5,475 nucleotides of DNA from assembly GCA_030531135.1 (NCBI GenBank), contig JAUNOJ010000126.1, forward strand, positions 1 to 5,475, given 5' to 3'. How positions within the stretch are numbered: position 1 is the stretch's first letter; every line of letters begins with the position of its first letter. A program made the position numbers and the translations under genes. The notes under the pieces are model-generated. The model was given only the letters and a program-made list of their open reading frames with translations. It searched no databases and was not told the origin of the DNA. Below, in pieces: positions 1 to 5,475 of this stretch. The stretch comes from Sutterellaceae bacterium (lineage in GTDB: Bacteria > Pseudomonadota > Gammaproteobacteria > Burkholderiales > Burkholderiaceae_F).

Positions 1-2373
1 GTACTCGGATTATTATCTGATATCAATCAGTACATTATTGGCATGGGGAACTTACAGACCAATCCGGCTGTGCAGTTCTCCAATTCTTCGGACAGCAGCC
101 TTCAGATGGGCGAAATCAAGCCTGCCAATATCTCGATTCACGGTTCTGTCGCTTACCAGAACAACTACATGCTCGACGGTATTTCCACGAACAGCGATCT
201 GGATCCGGCAGAACAGACATCAGTCACTACCACTCGTTTGGGTGCTTCGGATGAACAGGGCTTTTATGTCGACTCTCGCTTGATTGACAGCGTGACCGTT
301 TACGATCACAACATTCCGGTCGAATTCGGCGGCTTTACCGGCGGTGTCGTGGATGCTCAGACGCGTTCTTGGTCGGGCGAAAACCATATCAGCATCTTCG
401 GACGCATGACCGGCTCCAACTGGTCGCATATCATCACCGATCCCAATCTCAATGTCTCGAGCTCTGATGGCGACATCTCGCACCCGGCGCAATTCCAAAA
501 CGAGTTCAGAAAGAAGACCTACGGCTTTAATGCCGAATGGGGTTTGACGGAAAACTTGGGCGTTGTTGTCGGTTACTCGCGCAGAGAGTCCAAGATTCCG
601 ACGGTTCAGATACCAACGACGAGAGTTACGCTCATTCCGGACAACGAGTGGGGTGGTCTTCAAGAGGTCATTACAGAAACGGTTCCCGGTGGAACGCAAA
701 CGCAAGAACGAACGTCGGATAACTTTTTTGCAAAAGCCACGCTGTATGTCTCGCCCGAGACAGAGGCCAATTTGTCTTTTGCCTATTCCGGCTATACATC
801 CAAAGCTTTTTTAAGCACTGTGGCCGACTCCGATTATGAGGATCAGCATGACGGCTATAACCTCACTGCAAGTTTTAAACATGCTTTCGATAATGCTCAG
901 TGGGAAGGCTCGTTAGCCTATACCTACATGAAAGACAAGCGAGACAGTGCAGTAGATTATTGGTCGCAGCTCGACGACTATTCCTATGAACCTGGAATAG
1001 GTCAGACGTTATCAACCTCTGCTTCAGGTGGCTTGGGTGATTTGACCTCCGATCAATCTATTATCACCGCTAAAACTAAACTTGACTTTAATCCGATCCA
1101 ATATATGGATGCCACACACCAATTTACAGTTGGTGCTGAACTTAATCTCACACACGCCTCCTACAAACGAGATAAGAACTACTACCGATGGATGGCTCCG
1201 TCAATGAGCGGGTATGTACAAAATGTGTACACGACAAGATGGATGGCGGGAAAGTACACCGCCGACTACAACCAGGGCGCGCTGTTCGGTCAGCATACGT
1301 TGCAATATAAGGATTGGACCATTCGTACAGGCGTACGCGGTGAGTATGATGACTTTACCGAAGACTTCAACATGGCTCCTCGATTTACGGCTGCTTGGGA
1401 TCTGCTTGGCGATGGTGACAGTGTCTTGACCTTCGGTGCAAATCGATACTACGGGCGCAACATCCTTACCTATGCCCTTTACAAAGCGCAAAATGGTGGA
1501 ATGCAGAATGCATATTGGTACGGATCAGATGAGGTCCCATTGGAAGATGAAGATTGGTTCGATTCCAACGACTTTGACGGTTTGCAGGACCTCAAAACGC
1601 CTTATGATGACGAATTTTCAGTCGCATTCTCTCAGAAGGTTGCCGATTGGGTCGGAACTTTAGCCTATGTTCACCGTAATGGTCATGACGGTGTTCGATC
1701 TCGCGGCATTACAGAAGGTGCCGGTAGTGATACTAGGTTCATACGTCAATTTTATAACGGTGGGGAAAGCAAGCATGATTCCGTCATCTTTACCTTGAGC
1801 AATGTTCAGCCGTTGAAGTTTGCCAGCGCCAATCACTATGTCAAGTTCTCTGCCGCTTGGCAACAAACCAAGAGCAATACGGCAATTGACGAAGGCTACA
1901 GTGAACTCGAGTCCGGCAGGACGATCAACATGAACAAGGTTTGGTATGACGGCGATGTGATGGACGCCGAAGATCTTGATGCGACCGACTTCAATATTCC
2001 TGTGCGTTTGGATCTTGAACTCACATCGGAATGGGATCAGTGGGGATTGACTTGGTACAACTATTTCCACTTCAATGCCAAACGTAGTCAAGCTATTCGT
2101 GATGACGGAGAGTACGCCTCTTGGTATGATCCGGAAGCCGATGAAACTACTCAAATTCGTAAGTACAGCAAAGTCCGCTTCGCCTCGACATGGAGTTGGG
2201 ATACCAAACTGCTCTACAAGCCCGACTGGGCACGCGGTGTCGGCATTTCGCTTGAGGTCTACAACGTTCTCAACAACGAAAACGCCACGGACGTCTTTGT
2301 CTACAAGGGACAGCAATACAAGAGCTACGACCCGGGTCGTCAGTTCTGGTTGCAGGTGACGTACGACTACTAA
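1..2373 (+). CDS. TonB-dependent outer-membrane receptor, 5'-truncated by window edge
   Basis: Ligand-gated outer-membrane importer powered by TonB-ExbB-ExbD. The frame is open from base 1, giving 790 visible residues. The ATG at 43 lies inside the plug domain and has no signal peptide behind it, so the true start, signal peptide and TonB box are upstream of the window. Plug motifs are visible: ISIHGSVAYQNNYMLDG (about residues 44-60), matching the family's 'I-x-I-R-G ... DG' region, and the plug end IDSVTVYDHNIPVEFGG ... GGVVDAQTR (about 95-122), matching 'EV..G...yG...GGvvn..tr'. From about residue 127 to the end, alternating aromatic/polar strands separated by D/N/G/S-rich loops form the barrel. 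The last residues (QFWLQVTYDY) end in Tyr, the usual aromatic C-terminus for barrel assembly by BAM. Three strongly acidic stretches lie at residues 510-538, 650-663 and 701-715. The middle of the gene is more AT-rich than its 3' end. The following ABC transporter and M16 protease suggest protein or peptide cargo as in FusA/YddB systems. The receptor class is secure; the substrate is inference. Confidence 0.93.
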   Translation, partial: VLGLLSDINQYIIGMGNLQTNPAVQFSNSSDSSLQMGEIKPANISIHGSVAYQNNYMLDGISTNSDLDPAEQTSVTTTRLGASDEQGFYVDSRLIDSVTVYDHNIPVEFGGFTGGVVDAQTRSWSGENHISIFGRMTGSNWSHIITDPNLNVSSSDGDISHPAQFQNEFRKKTYGFNAEWGLTENLGVVVGYSRRESKIPTVQIPTTRVTLIPDNEWGGLQEVITETVPGGTQTQERTSDNFFAKATLYVSPETEANLSFAYSGYTSKAFLSTVADSDYEDQHDGYNLTASFKHAFDNAQWEGSLAYTYMKDKRDSAVDYWSQLDDYSYEPGIGQTLSTSASGGLGDLTSDQSIITAKTKLDFNPIQYMDATHQFTVGAELNLTHASYKRDKNYYRWMAPSMSGYVQNVYTTRWMAGKYTADYNQGALFGQHTLQYKDWTIRTGVRGEYDDFTEDFNMAPRFTAAWDLLGDGDSVLTFGANRYYGRNILTYALYKAQNGGMQNAYWYGSDEVPLEDEDWFDSNDFDGLQDLKTPYDDEFSVAFSQKVADWVGTLAYVHRNGHDGVRSRGITEGAGSDTRFIRQFYNGGESKHDSVIFTLSNVQPLKFASANHYVKFSAAWQQTKSNTAIDEGYSELESGRTINMNKVWYDGDVMDAEDLDATDFNIPVRLDLELTSEWDQWGLTWYNYFHFNAKRSQAIRDDGEYASWYDPEADETTQIRKYSKVRFASTWSWDTKLLYKPDWARGVGISLEVYNVLNNENATDVFVYKGQQYKSYDPGRQFWLQVTYDY

Positions 2374-2402
2374 TTTCTCGATTCAATCAAATCAGTAGTG
2401 CT

Positions 2403-2438
2403 TTCCTGACGGGCTCCGCAAAAAGAGCCTGTCAGGAA
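2403..2438 (+). terminator. Intercistronic hairpin, terminator-like but lacking a T-tract
   Basis: A near-perfect inverted repeat begins 29 nt after the receptor stop. Arms 2403-2416 and 2425-2438 form 14 base pairs with a single G-U pair (2411/2430) and an 8-nt loop, CGCAAAAA. The 3' flank (ATATCTCATT) has no run of T on this strand, and the other strand has none beyond the opposite arm, so it is not a classic intrinsic terminator. It may give partial termination, or protect the 3' end of the receptor mRNA from exonucleases and so set unequal expression of receptor and downstream genes. The stem is seen directly; the role is inferred. Confidence 0.55.
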
Positions 2439-2464
2439 TATCTCATTTACGGCGTATCCCATTT

Positions 2465-4138
2465 ATGAATCAGCTCAAGGTATTTTGGCAACTCATTCGT
2501 CCGTTCTGGACGCAAAGCGAGGGCAGAAAGGCGGCGATGTTTCTCCTTTTGGTCGTTATCGCACTTTCTCTATCCTCCGTTTGGTTTTCCGTTCGCCTCA
2601 ACGAGTGGAACGGCGCATTTTTCAATGCGATTCAAAAGTTGGACGGCCCGACGATTTATTCGTTGTTGGGCGATTTTATTTTGATCGTTTCGGCTTTTGT
2701 GGTCGTGTTGGTCTACACGGACTGGTTGCAGAAAAAGCTCATCATCGATTGGCGTACGTGGATGACGAAAAACGTGTGCGCCAGATGGTTGTCGTCCGAC
2801 AGCCGCCACTATCGATTGCAGTTGGAAAGTCTTCAGCCCGACAATCCCGATCAACGCATCGCGGAAGACATCAATATTCTCATTGAAGTCTCGCTCGATC
2901 TTTTGATCTCGTTCTTGCGTTCCGTCCTGACGCTTGTGAGCTTTATCACGATTTTGTGGACGCTTTCGGGGACGTTGGACTTTACGCTCATCGGTATTGA
3001 TTTCTCCGTTCCCGGGTACATGGTTTGGGCTTGTTTGGCCTATACGCTGGTGGCAACCGCCATTACCCATTGGATCGGCAAGCCGTTGATGAAACTTAAT
3101 TTCGCGCAACAAAAGCGCGAGGCCAATTTCCGTACTGGCCTGATTGCACGCATTCACAATGCCGAAGCCATCGCCGGTCAGCATGGTGAAGAGAGCGAAT
3201 GCCGGCGACTACTCGACATCTTTCATCGTGTCCAAACCAACTGGCGTCAGTTGATGGACAAAAATCGTAATTTGTCTTTCTTTACCGTGGGTTTCGGCCA
3301 GGTCACGCAGTTGGCTCCGATCTTTTTTGCTTTACCCAAATTCCTGTCGGGCGCCATTCAGCTCGGCGGCTTGATGCAGATTCGCATTGCCTTCGGACAG
3401 GTAGCTTCGGCTGTCGGTTGGTTCATTTATTCCTACCGCGATATTGCCAAGTGGTCTGCTACGGTCGATCGTTTGACCTCCTTTGAAAAAGTTCTCAATT
3501 GTCCGGTTGCCGTTCGTGAGCAAGAAGTTCGTAACGAACCTCCGGCACTTCAAGCCGATGTTTCCTTGCAACTGCCCGACGGCAAACCTTTGCTCGGTCC
3601 CGTGAGTCTGAAGGCCGAAATCGGCAAACTCACCGTCATCAAAGGGGCTTCGGGCATCGGCAAGAGTTGCTTGTTGCGCGCACTGGCCGGGTTCTGGCCG
3701 CATTACGAGGGAACGATTTCTCGTTTGCCCGCGGCTGCCGTCTGGATTCCTCAAAGAATTTGGCTGGCACCTTTGAGTTTGAAAGCGCTTTTGGCTTATC
3801 CGGCAGATGCCCAAAGCTTGTCCGACGAAAGTTGTCGTGCGGCTCTGGCCGAAGTCGGTCTCGATCGTCTGGCTCAAGGCTCGCTGGACGAAGAGGATCA
3901 GCCCTGGCAACAGCGGCTTTCGGGCGGCGAACAGCAACGCCTGATGATTGCCCGCATTTTGCTGAGAAAGCCGAAATTGTTGTTGCTTGACGAAATCACT
4001 TCGGCTTTGGATGCACGCAGTACCCAAGAAGTACTGGATCTTTTGCGAGAGAAATTGGCGCAAAGCGCCATCGTCTTTGTTTCCCACCAATCCGAAGTGC
4101 ATCAGCGCGCCGACACACTGATTGAAATTAAAGGTTAA
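2465..4138 (+). CDS. YddA/SbmA-type ABC transporter, fused permease and ATPase (FusD-like)
   Basis: Complete 557-residue ABC half-transporter expected to dimerise in the inner membrane. The N-terminal half is the ABC_membrane_2/SbmA_BacA-type permease, with hydrophobic segments near residues 24-42, 64-86, 142-168, 184-203, 272-296 and 303-325. The family motif NPDQRIAED occurs at 127-135. The C-terminal ATPase (from about 362) has every catalytic element: Walker A GASGIGKS (394-401), Q-loop Gln430, signature LSGGEQQR (485-492), Walker B LLLLDE (505-510) with catalytic Glu510, D-loop SALD (513-516) and switch His541. From memory, YddA/ABCD relatives usually have LSLGEQQR, so the Gly here is closer to the general ABC consensus. 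Length matches YddA (about 560). The ATG at 2465 is chosen because no other ATG, GTG or TTG lies between it and the in-frame stop at 2396-2398, and the protein begins with the family's N-terminal region (FWQLIRPFW). The Shine-Dalgarno is weak (GGCG at 2451-2454 at best). YddA/FusD proteins sit beside receptor-protease pairs; SbmA/BacA relatives import peptides. Import of a peptide or iron-linked product is therefore plausible, but the direction and substrate are unproven. A vitamin B12 or other small-molecule transporter is an alternative. Confidence 0.93.
   Translation: MNQLKVFWQLIRPFWTQSEGRKAAMFLLLVVIALSLSSVWFSVRLNEWNGAFFNAIQKLDGPTIYSLLGDFILIVSAFVVVLVYTDWLQKKLIIDWRTWMTKNVCARWLSSDSRHYRLQLESLQPDNPDQRIAEDINILIEVSLDLLISFLRSVLTLVSFITILWTLSGTLDFTLIGIDFSVPGYMVWACLAYTLVATAITHWIGKPLMKLNFAQQKREANFRTGLIARIHNAEAIAGQHGEESECRRLLDIFHRVQTNWRQLMDKNRNLSFFTVGFGQVTQLAPIFFALPKFLSGAIQLGGLMQIRIAFGQVASAVGWFIYSYRDIAKWSATVDRLTSFEKVLNCPVAVREQEVRNEPPALQADVSLQLPDGKPLLGPVSLKAEIGKLTVIKGASGIGKSCLLRALAGFWPHYEGTISRLPAAAVWIPQRIWLAPLSLKALLAYPADAQSLSDESCRAALAEVGLDRLAQGSLDEEDQPWQQRLSGGEQQRLMIARILLRKPKLLLLDEITSALDARSTQEVLDLLREKLAQSAIVFVSHQSEVHQRADTLIEIKG
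4130..4134 (+). promoter_or_regulatory. Ribosome-binding site of the M16 protease gene, inside the ABC gene end
   Basis: AAAGG covers the last sense codons of the ABC transporter and stands 9 nt before the ATG at 4144. The site overlaps the upstream coding region and the ABC stop lies between it and the start codon. Ribosomes finishing the transporter would therefore uncover or reuse it, which suggests translational coupling. It also supports 4144 as the protease start. Confidence 0.65.
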
Positions 4139-4143
4139 TAGCT

Positions 4144-5475
4144 ATGAAATCTCAAAAGAATTCGTTTGGAAAAGTCAGCGTTTTGTCTCTGGCCGTATTG
4201 GGTGCCGTGGTGACGTTCGGACTTGCCGGTTGTGCGCAAAATCAAGGTGCGCGACAGGCAACCGATGATACGCAGACGCAAACGGCGATCACGGGCAGCG
4301 ACGTTTTGCCGATTGCTTCGGGAATGAAGCGCTATGTTCTTGACAACGGTCTGACGGTGCTTGTCTACCCGAGAAAGGATCCGAGAGAAAGTGCGGAATT
4401 CCGATTGGTTGTCAGAGCAGGCAGTCTTCAGGAAACGGAAAACGAGCGCGGTTTGGCGCATTTTGTCGAACACATGGCTTTTAACGGTACGCAAGACTTT
4501 CCGGGACAGACGATTTTCAAGCGTCTTGAAGAGCACGGTATCATGCTTGGTGTCGACGTCAATGCCGTGACGTCTTTGGCCGACACCACCTATAAGCTTT
4601 CGATTGGGCGCTCAACAGGAGAGTCTTTACAAGAGGCGATTCACACGCTGAGCCAATGGGCTTTTCACATCACGTTTGAAGAAGAGGCATTTAACCGCGA
4701 GCGCGAAATTATCGTCGAAGAATGGCGACTGCGCCAGGGGATCGGTTCACGCATCAACAATCCCTTGCAAAGCCTGCGCTACAAGGGTAGTGCATCTGCC
4801 GATCGCGATCCGATCGGGCTCATCGATATTATCCGCACAGCACCTGCGCAAAGAGCAAAGGACTTCTACAAGCGTTGGTACGAACCGCAAAACATGACGT
4901 TGTGCGTCACGGGCGACTATGACACCGAAGAGGTGATGGAACAGGTGCGCAAATATTTCGGCGACGTGCCGCGCGGCACACATACGACGCCGACGGATTG
5001 GGGACGTTTTACGCTATCCAAAAATCAGGCCGGATTGACGGCGCTCATTTTCGACGAAGAGCAAAGCGACCGTTTCGTGCAGGTCATGTTGCAGGAAAAG
5101 CTCGAAAATCCGCTCAATACCGTCAACGGTCAGTGGCGCGACATGCTCGAAAGATTGACACTGGAAATTCTCTCCGAGCGTTTCCGTTTAATCGGAGAAC
5201 ATGAACTCGTCGGAAGCCTTCAGGCTCCGGACAGTTCATGGGTTCTTTCACCGTCGCAAAGTCAGGTGCTGCTTTTGGTGCGTCCCAAGGCGCAGCAGTC
5301 TTATGAAGAGGCGCTTGCGATTGCTTCCACCGAAATTCATCGTTTGGCCCAAATCGGACCGACACAGACAGAGGTCGACGTAGCTTTGAAAAAGTACGGT
5401 TCGAAACTGACCGATCAAGCGGAGAACTACGCGCGTTATGCCAACCGCAATATCAACGATCAGATCGCCGAACCC
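4144..5475 (+). CDS. PqqL/FusC-like M16 zinc metalloprotease, predicted lipoprotein, 3'-truncated
   Basis: The frame is open from ATG 4144 to the window end, giving 444 residues, about half of the roughly 900-950 typical of PqqL/FusC. The N-terminus is a lipoprotein signal: basic MKSQKNSFGK, hydrophobic core 11-26, lipobox LAGC with lipidated Cys30. Residue +2 is Ala rather than Asp, which predicts transfer to the outer membrane. A polar linker (about 31-55) leads to the first M16 domain (about 60-200). The inverted zinc motif HFVEH gives ligands His106 and His110 and catalytic base Glu109; in ERE...EEW, Glu193 is the probable third ligand, with Glu186 the conserved helper. LAHFVEHMAFNGT and the G-x-D-V-N-A-x-T region (about 136-142) closely recall PqqL. 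The M16_C-type domain starts near FYKRWYEPQNMTLCVTGDY (241-259). No defect is seen in the visible half. The gene starts 5 nt after the ABC stop, placing it in the same operon. Expected role: periplasmic cutting of a protein or peptide brought in by the receptor. The family is secure; the cargo is inferred by analogy with FusC. A generic M16 peptidase not tied to import is the alternative. Confidence 0.93.
   Translation, partial: MKSQKNSFGKVSVLSLAVLGAVVTFGLAGCAQNQGARQATDDTQTQTAITGSDVLPIASGMKRYVLDNGLTVLVYPRKDPRESAEFRLVVRAGSLQETENERGLAHFVEHMAFNGTQDFPGQTIFKRLEEHGIMLGVDVNAVTSLADTTYKLSIGRSTGESLQEAIHTLSQWAFHITFEEEAFNREREIIVEEWRLRQGIGSRINNPLQSLRYKGSASADRDPIGLIDIIRTAPAQRAKDFYKRWYEPQNMTLCVTGDYDTEEVMEQVRKYFGDVPRGTHTTPTDWGRFTLSKNQAGLTALIFDEEQSDRFVQVMLQEKLENPLNTVNGQWRDMLERLTLEILSERFRLIGEHELVGSLQAPDSSWVLSPSQSQVLLLVRPKAQQSYEEALAIASTEIHRLAQIGPTQTEVDVALKKYGSKLTDQAENYARYANRNINDQIAEP

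Follow-up and report, generated by a model that had tools for sequence, protein, structure and literature searches.

What brings a TonB-dependent receptor, an ATP-binding cassette (ABC) transporter and an M16 metalloprotease together in one line of genes? The question is raised by a 5475-bp stretch of DNA from a Sutterellaceae bacterium (JAUNOJ010000126.1, analysed here at its whole length and called the window), for which a protease-associated import operon had been proposed from the letters alone (the original prediction). Our analysis indicates that the three window genes are probably the first of nine that make up an iron-stealing protein-import system with its own energy module. The window is a complete contig (C397) of a draft genome (G000; 2.11 Mb in 403 contigs, 87.55% complete) and is cut at both ends. 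Its features are:

1..2373, + strand: FusA/YddB-family TonB-dependent receptor, 790 codons; signal peptide, TonB box and plug start lost at the contig end.
2374..2464, + strand: receptor–ABC gap of 91 nt with a 14-bp RNA hairpin (folding energy −27.6 kcal/mol, z −4.3).
2465..4138, + strand: YddA/SbmA-type ABC transporter with permease and ATPase fused in a single chain and its motifs intact.
4144..5475, + strand: N-terminal half of a PqqL/FusC-type M16 metalloprotease, with HFVEH and the lipobox LAGC (Cys30, then Ala-Gln).
5417..5472, + strand: overlap with the end of contig G000:C64, 53/56 identical; 5472 lies three bases short of the window end.

The three long + strand open reading frames (ORFs) encode 790 aa (open at the 5′ end), 557 aa and 444 aa (open at the 3′ end), and 5 nt separate the ABC stop from the protease start. 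The arrangement originally described, three genes in line on one strand with the last two 5 nt apart, was thereby confirmed, with the amendment that the outer two are fragments. By eye, the receptor frame departs over its first ~15 codons (window 1–50) from the plug consensus of its relatives, which may be a contig-end error.

The same genome carries the remaining genes on two further contigs. Past its overlap with the window, C64 encodes the protease C-terminal half, TtpB (DUF3450, E 3e-52), TtpC (a MotA_ExbB protein with an extended N-terminal region) and part of ExbB. The protease profile is matched at positions 9–436 on C397 and 419–956 on C64, as expected of a single protein split over the two contigs, and the three mismatches in their 56-bp overlap suggest a strain mixture or an end error in the draft genome. 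The outer 300 nt of C64 encode ExbB residues 17–102 (31% identity to the ExbB of G019, a genome of the same family), and the end of a further contig, C211, encodes ExbB residues 114–176, ExbD, TonB and then a 403-aa protein matching the TtpD of G019 (E 7e-75), a likeness that is the sole basis for its identification. We link C64 to C211 because exbB is split between them and because of the gene run in G019, where receptor, ABC transporter, M16 protease, DUF3450 protein, TtpC, ExbB, ExbD, TonB and TtpD follow one another on a 365-kb contig (L010; ExbB and ExbD assigned by translation and likeness, without Pfam). The TonB2-type order of DUF3450 (TtpB), TtpC, ExbB, ExbD and TonB is unbroken in G019 and spread over C64 and C211 in the window's genome, where we infer that the nine-gene set spans C397, C64 and C211. 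Tetratricopeptide (TPR) repeats in TtpD are clear in the family genomes G002, G063 and G024 (E 2e-11 or better) and weak in G019 (best E 0.015).

Because both window ends are contig ends, the absence of tonB within the window is uninformative. The original prediction had seen no TonB/FusB-like gene, and this part of it fell: tonB, exbB, exbD and three accessory genes lie on the two other contigs. Its suggestion that the flanks might supply a tonB-like gene and the protease C-terminal half proved apt (C211 and C64, respectively). A motor-less variant was accordingly rejected as an effect of truncation.

All three window proteins are kin to components of known systems, as had been foreseen. The only matches of the receptor at E ≤ 0.001 in a sequence search of the Protein Data Bank (PDB) were YddB (6ofr, E 5e-74) and FusA (4zgv, E 3e-57), and a fold search with an AlphaFold2 model of it (mean pLDDT 71.7, low in the cut-off plug) returned the same two (6ofr, E 4e-53, TM 0.76; 4zgv, E 1e-47, TM 0.75) ahead of 1fep (E 3e-23). 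No Pfam or NCBIfam model matched the truncated receptor, and a receptor scan of genome contigs gave one weak acidobacterial match. The ABC chain carries PF06472, PF05992 (SbmA_BacA) and PF00005, is 37% identical to Escherichia coli YddA and has intact Walker A (394), signature (485), Walker B (505) and H-loop (540) motifs. Its best solved match is 6tqe, which we take to be Rv1819c, an importer. The protease half carries PF00675 and PF05193, with PqqL (6ofs, E 3e-50) as best PDB match and the HxxEH motif, present as HFVEH, at residue 106; the R/Y motif of the C-terminal half on C64 is REKLRTELSGVY, and its counterpart in PqqL is RVNIREQASGAY. A 1226-aa database protein (P0034) joins about one-third of a G019-type receptor to nearly the whole protease in one chain, and may be a deletion or assembly chimaera.

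The three proteins also diverge together. Over 11 systems, Mantel correlations of pairwise identities were 0.85 for receptor and ABC transporter (p 0.0004), 0.90 for receptor and protease (p 0.0002) and 0.91 for ABC transporter and protease (p 0.0002), with the window protease entered as half a protein, two of the 11 systems joined by inference only and r inflated by close relatives. These values support the co-evolution that the original prediction had proposed to look for, and the receptor, rather than grouping with a small-molecule family and occurring apart from the other two genes, groups with FusA/YddB by sequence and fold and co-occurs with both. A siderophore receptor with unrelated neighbours, which the Fur-like sites described below would fit if taken alone, was therefore rejected as hardly credible.

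Co-occurrence extends to the energy module. The receptor is present in four of 67 family genomes (G000, G002, G019 and G063; E ≤ 1e-30), and DUF3450 scores above cut-off in exactly these four (Fisher p 1.3e-6, ignoring relatedness), with mostly weak matches at E ≤ 0.001 in 18/67. The protease profile is matched in 21/67 at E ≤ 1e-20 and in 7/67 at E < 1e-40, the latter including all four receptor genomes (p 4.6e-5, at a limit picked post hoc). In G024, protease, TtpD, TonB, ExbD, ExbB and TtpC run up to the contig end. None of these neighbours accompanies the proteases of G027 and G050, or the second proteases of G063 and G002.

To place the locus among its relatives, receptors were searched for in four overlapping samples, yielding 4/150 relatives (E ≤ 1e-3), 4/369 genomes of the class (1e-40), 4/67 of the family (1e-30) and 11/399 of the order (1e-30), and together 16 loci in 15 genomes. 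Seven of these (G000, G019, G002, G063, G648, G743:C139 and G762) pair the receptor with a protease, and every one of the seven also has an inner-membrane importer (over two contigs in G063), of SbmA/YddA type in six. A di-haem cytochrome c peroxidase takes the place of the protease at three loci (G372 and G319 by Pfam, G660 by phmmer; L019, L020, L058), and the other six have neither enzyme (G269, G743:C1, G662, G701, G558, G595), G743:C1 and G595 lying near a contig end. The DUF3450/TtpC module occurs at four of the 16, all in the window's family. FecR-like ORFs precede the receptors of G660, G662, G701 and G762, and two M16 proteases lie near one G743 receptor (L059, 6557–9319 and 16270–18960), the second receptor locus of that genome being elsewhere. 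The G648 receptor resembles, by eye, one from Vogesella (P0047). Beyond these samples we examined three of 29 matching records of a plasmid collection, and E. coli K-12. In Vibrio pelagius the receptor is divergent from an M16 protease, an SbmA/BacA protein without nucleotide-binding domain (NBD), ExbB, ExbD, TonB and FhuF.

Within the family, G002, of the window's own genus, has the same nine gene kinds as two divergent runs; its receptor and that of the window share only 27% identity, and its protease reaches the contig start. By eye, a set of genes starting ~11 kb past this import locus (L029, 6260–18688) looks like a type III secretion export apparatus. In G063 the gene after the receptor encodes a family-5 binding protein (E 4e-60 with Pfam), for which NikA is the best NCBIfam model, at a score below cut-off. 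Next come a YejB scoring above its NCBIfam cut-off (494 vs 445 bits), a YejE-like permease just short of its own (408 vs 439) and a double ATPase that falls below the cut-off of the YejF model (530 vs 834) and passes those of NikD and NikE; DUF3450 and TtpC then close the contig. Another contig starts with ExbB, ExbD, TonB, a TPR protein and the M16 protease; the ends of the two (C168 and C116) do not overlap, and the gene order across them is presumed. If the two join, G063 would have a peptide/nickel-type binding-protein importer in exchange for the SbmA-type transporter, the rest of the machine being equal. The SbmA and Yej families are entry routes for peptide antibiotics, and the NCBIfam names of the families matched here are those of peptide antibiotic and microcin C transporters.

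How does the set compare with systems already described? The E. coli genes yddA-yddB-pqqL lie side by side and encode homologues of the receptor (28% identity), the ABC transporter (37%) and the M16 protease (38% across 211 catalytic-part residues). Their order is ABC transporter, receptor, protease; PqqL lacks a lipobox by pattern, and no tonB or ttp is among the 14 annotated features of a 20-kb stretch. Pectobacterium Fus consists of the receptor FusA, the TonB protein FusB, the M16 protease FusC and the ABC protein FusD (PMC5095587), and thus shares with the window set a receptor, a protease, a fused ABC transporter and a TonB in one cluster; the window set differs in having a six-gene energiser rather than a lone TonB, and a protease with a lipobox. 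A Fus-like cluster of Pantoea sp. At-9b (pPAT9B03) runs tonB, receptor, M16 protease, ABC transporter, unlike the window. Closest in order is Proteus mirabilis H110 (L026), which has receptor, ABC transporter and M16 protease in the same succession (44%, 49% and, for the protease N-terminal half, 40% identical) and a lipobox, but differs in having a TonB-like ORF (phmmer 2e-9), an extracytoplasmic function (ECF) sigma factor and FecR, and no match to Ttp, ExbB or ExbD over 30 kb. Its sigma factor and FecR genes lie upstream (L026, 11959–13510) and suggest substrate-sensed induction, and a database protein with an N-terminus like that of the Proteus receptor by eye (P0035) has an extra signalling domain, PF07660.

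The order of genes had been singled out originally as a separate arrangement. It does differ from that of E. coli, but as a novelty it is weak, and we rejected it as such, because P. mirabilis H110 has the same order; a 2016 paper also notes differing gene orders among E. coli, Proteus and Yersinia (PMC5095587), and a 2019 survey counted 24 FusA clusters, 12 with FusC homologues, in varied arrangements, with peroxidase-linked cases like those seen here (Grinter 2019, PMC6793856). Where the window set stands apart is in its motor. The closest parallel to that part is in Vibrio vulnificus, whose TonB2 and TonB3 systems (ttpB-ttpC-exbB-exbD-tonB-ttpD) comprise the same six genes in the same order, the tonB3 operon likewise beginning with a receptor gene (PMC6957404). 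They differ in that TonB2 serves siderophores, and the available text mentions no protease or ABC transporter (PMC6957404). The main text of PMC6793856 contains neither 'ExbB' nor 'lipoprotein' (supplement and figures lying outside this count), and in the open-access literature we found no report of a six-gene Ttp energiser joined to a protease-import system, of a predicted membrane-anchored protease or of a Yej/Nik-type swap. The window locus is well supported as a protease-associated import system, a kind already described, and its built-in motor marks it as a distinct variant.

Ttp modules also occur apart from such systems. A Pseudoalteromonas donghaensis plasmid has a similar module whose surroundings, over ~8 kb, include no annotated receptor or protease, and a conjugative plasmid of Vibrio sp. 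J383 (L066, 12043–15933), whose TtpC is the best plasmid match to that of the window's genome, carries genes for a TtpC-like protein, ExbB, ExbD, TonB and one more protein between insertion sequences. The window's genome has a second TonB/ExbD pair, beside an ABC transporter (G000:C76, 2479–3743; L079).

Two further features bear on how the set would work. The first is the signal peptide of the window protease, which ends in LAGC-AQ, a lipobox by pattern from which acylation is predicted only. By the usual lipoprotein sorting rule, an Ala at +2 indicates an outer-membrane location, and the protease is predicted from its N-terminus to be lipid-anchored, probably at the inner face of the outer membrane. 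Lipoboxes were seen by eye in seven of 17 rows of a protease alignment (A2), and the pattern flagged 13 of 38 proteases, plausibly in the window, Proteus and eight database proteins and doubtfully in G024, G648 and G762; it missed the G019 protease, in which we read MTGC by eye. The anchor is not general, because the proteases of G002, G063, E. coli, Pantoea and V. pelagius have no lipobox. The second is the hairpin between receptor and ABC genes, which recurs at the same position in G019 (z −3.3) and G002 (z −2.8), with no such hairpin in the Proteus gap (z 0.2). It probably keeps the receptor message above that of the downstream genes.

What, then, is imported? We scanned 12 regions for Fur-box-like sites with a 19-bp match score and shuffles (p values uncorrected for the 12 regions), and five gave p < 0.05: those of G019, G002, V. 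pelagius, the Proteus sigma/TonB region and G762. The G019 site (14/19) lies 78 bp before the receptor start; nothing else in its 20-kb locus scores as high or higher, and 15/3000 shuffles reached it. G002 has two sites of 16/19, with no others that high in 18 kb, both within the 662-bp divergent intergenic region (3/3000 shuffles), and V. pelagius has one (6/3000 shuffles) at a locus that fhuF adjoins. Because such sites precede the G019 and G002 operons (not that of G063), iron is likely the prize of the import system.

The same sites bear on two other readings. One retains the machine and makes it an importer of proteins or long peptides as a source of nitrogen and amino acids, with iron as regulator or side benefit only. 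For it speak the inner-membrane partners, which belong to families related to peptide importers (SbmA/YddA at six of seven loci, the NBD-less SbmA/BacA of V. pelagius and the YejB of G063), and a metabolomics screen in which YddA overexpression sped the depletion of amino acids and a dipeptide (PMC10971958). The Fur-box-like sites of G019, G002 and V. pelagius and the neighbouring fhuF speak against it, and in G063 the NikA best model (below cut-off) and the passed NikD and NikE cut-offs make a metal cargo as possible as a plain peptide. We give this reading a modest chance of being right. In the other, receptor and ABC transporter would draw in antimicrobial peptides or small bacteriocins for the protease to destroy, a detoxification that would suit both the peptide-antibiotic routes of the SbmA/Yej families and the peptide-cutting of M16 proteases; we consider this very unlikely, since an energised outer-membrane importer is costly for toxin removal and the Fur-like sites fit nutrition better.

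Under the iron-import reading that we favour, iron shortage would lift Fur repression, the receptor would bind a small foreign protein at the cell surface, and the TtpC–ExbB–ExbD–TonB complex of the operon would harness the proton gradient, opening the receptor so that the protein is pulled through it. Held by a lipid anchor, probably at the inner face of the outer membrane, the M16 protease would close on the imported protein and cut it, which would release iron or an iron-peptide, and the SbmA-type ABC transporter would carry the product into the cytoplasm. Four elements of this scheme are our inference: that the three contigs join, which way the transporter works, that the protease is anchored and that iron is what is gained.

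Several observations weigh against it. The set of the window's own genome is pieced from three contigs, of which C397 and C64 overlap with the mismatches given above, and C64 and C211 do not overlap, ~11 ExbB residues being missing between them. Seven of the 12 scanned regions have no significant Fur-like site, namely those of G063 (best score 12/19, p 0.19), the E. coli control (13/19, p 0.26), Pantoea, G743, G648, the Proteus FecR–receptor region and the window's receptor–ABC gap, and the window's own promoter lies off the contig. Nor is the operon motor necessarily exclusive: TonB_C proteins number two in G000, two in G002, one in G019, three in G063 (one below cut-off) and one in G024, so further ones lie elsewhere in G000, G002 and G063, and Plug domains number one, one, two, four and none in the same genomes (the window's truncated receptor being invisible to this search). 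The sole TonB_C protein detected in G019 is that of the operon, and because two Plug domains stand beside it, the motor may serve a second receptor there too.

The direction of ABC transport is a further point. ABC_membrane_2 proteins have an exporter-type fold, which would suit an operon that combines an importer with an efflux pump; with an importer (6tqe, as assumed above) as best solved match of the window protein, and a binding-protein-dependent importer at the equivalent place in G063, such an operon seems to us improbable. E. coli YddA has been reported as a drug exporter, on YddA-dependent norfloxacin efflux (PMC9728188), which counts for that alternative and against import. Iron use is unproven even in E. 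coli, because a section heading of PMC6793856 states that PqqL and YddB do not support growth in iron-limited LB. Finally, the RRxxYP motif of the TonB protein FusB is needed for ferredoxin import (PMC13253070, PMC7593965), and the operon TonB lacks it, with RTPPQYP in the window's genome and RVPPQYP in G019 (RRVNYP was detected in Pantoea as control). Because its own TonB is without this FusB-type motif, the window system is, on motif grounds, not Fus proper.

Protease-associated import systems are a leading case for whole-protein import by bacteria, and the lineage studied here encodes receptor, protease, inner-membrane transporter and motor together. We put forward, tentatively and with rather less confidence than the iron-import reading, that one operon specifies a self-powered, protein-eating machine of the envelope, made up of a receptor, a six-part motor, a protease moored beneath the receptor and an exchangeable importer. 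G063 is a natural case in which the last transporter differs, and if that swap is true, the product reaching the cytoplasm would be a peptide or metal-peptide, as against the free iron–sulphur cluster of the published Fus model. Both the power source of protein import and the form in which the product reaches the cytoplasm (peptide, metal-peptide or free iron) are now directly testable in this lineage.

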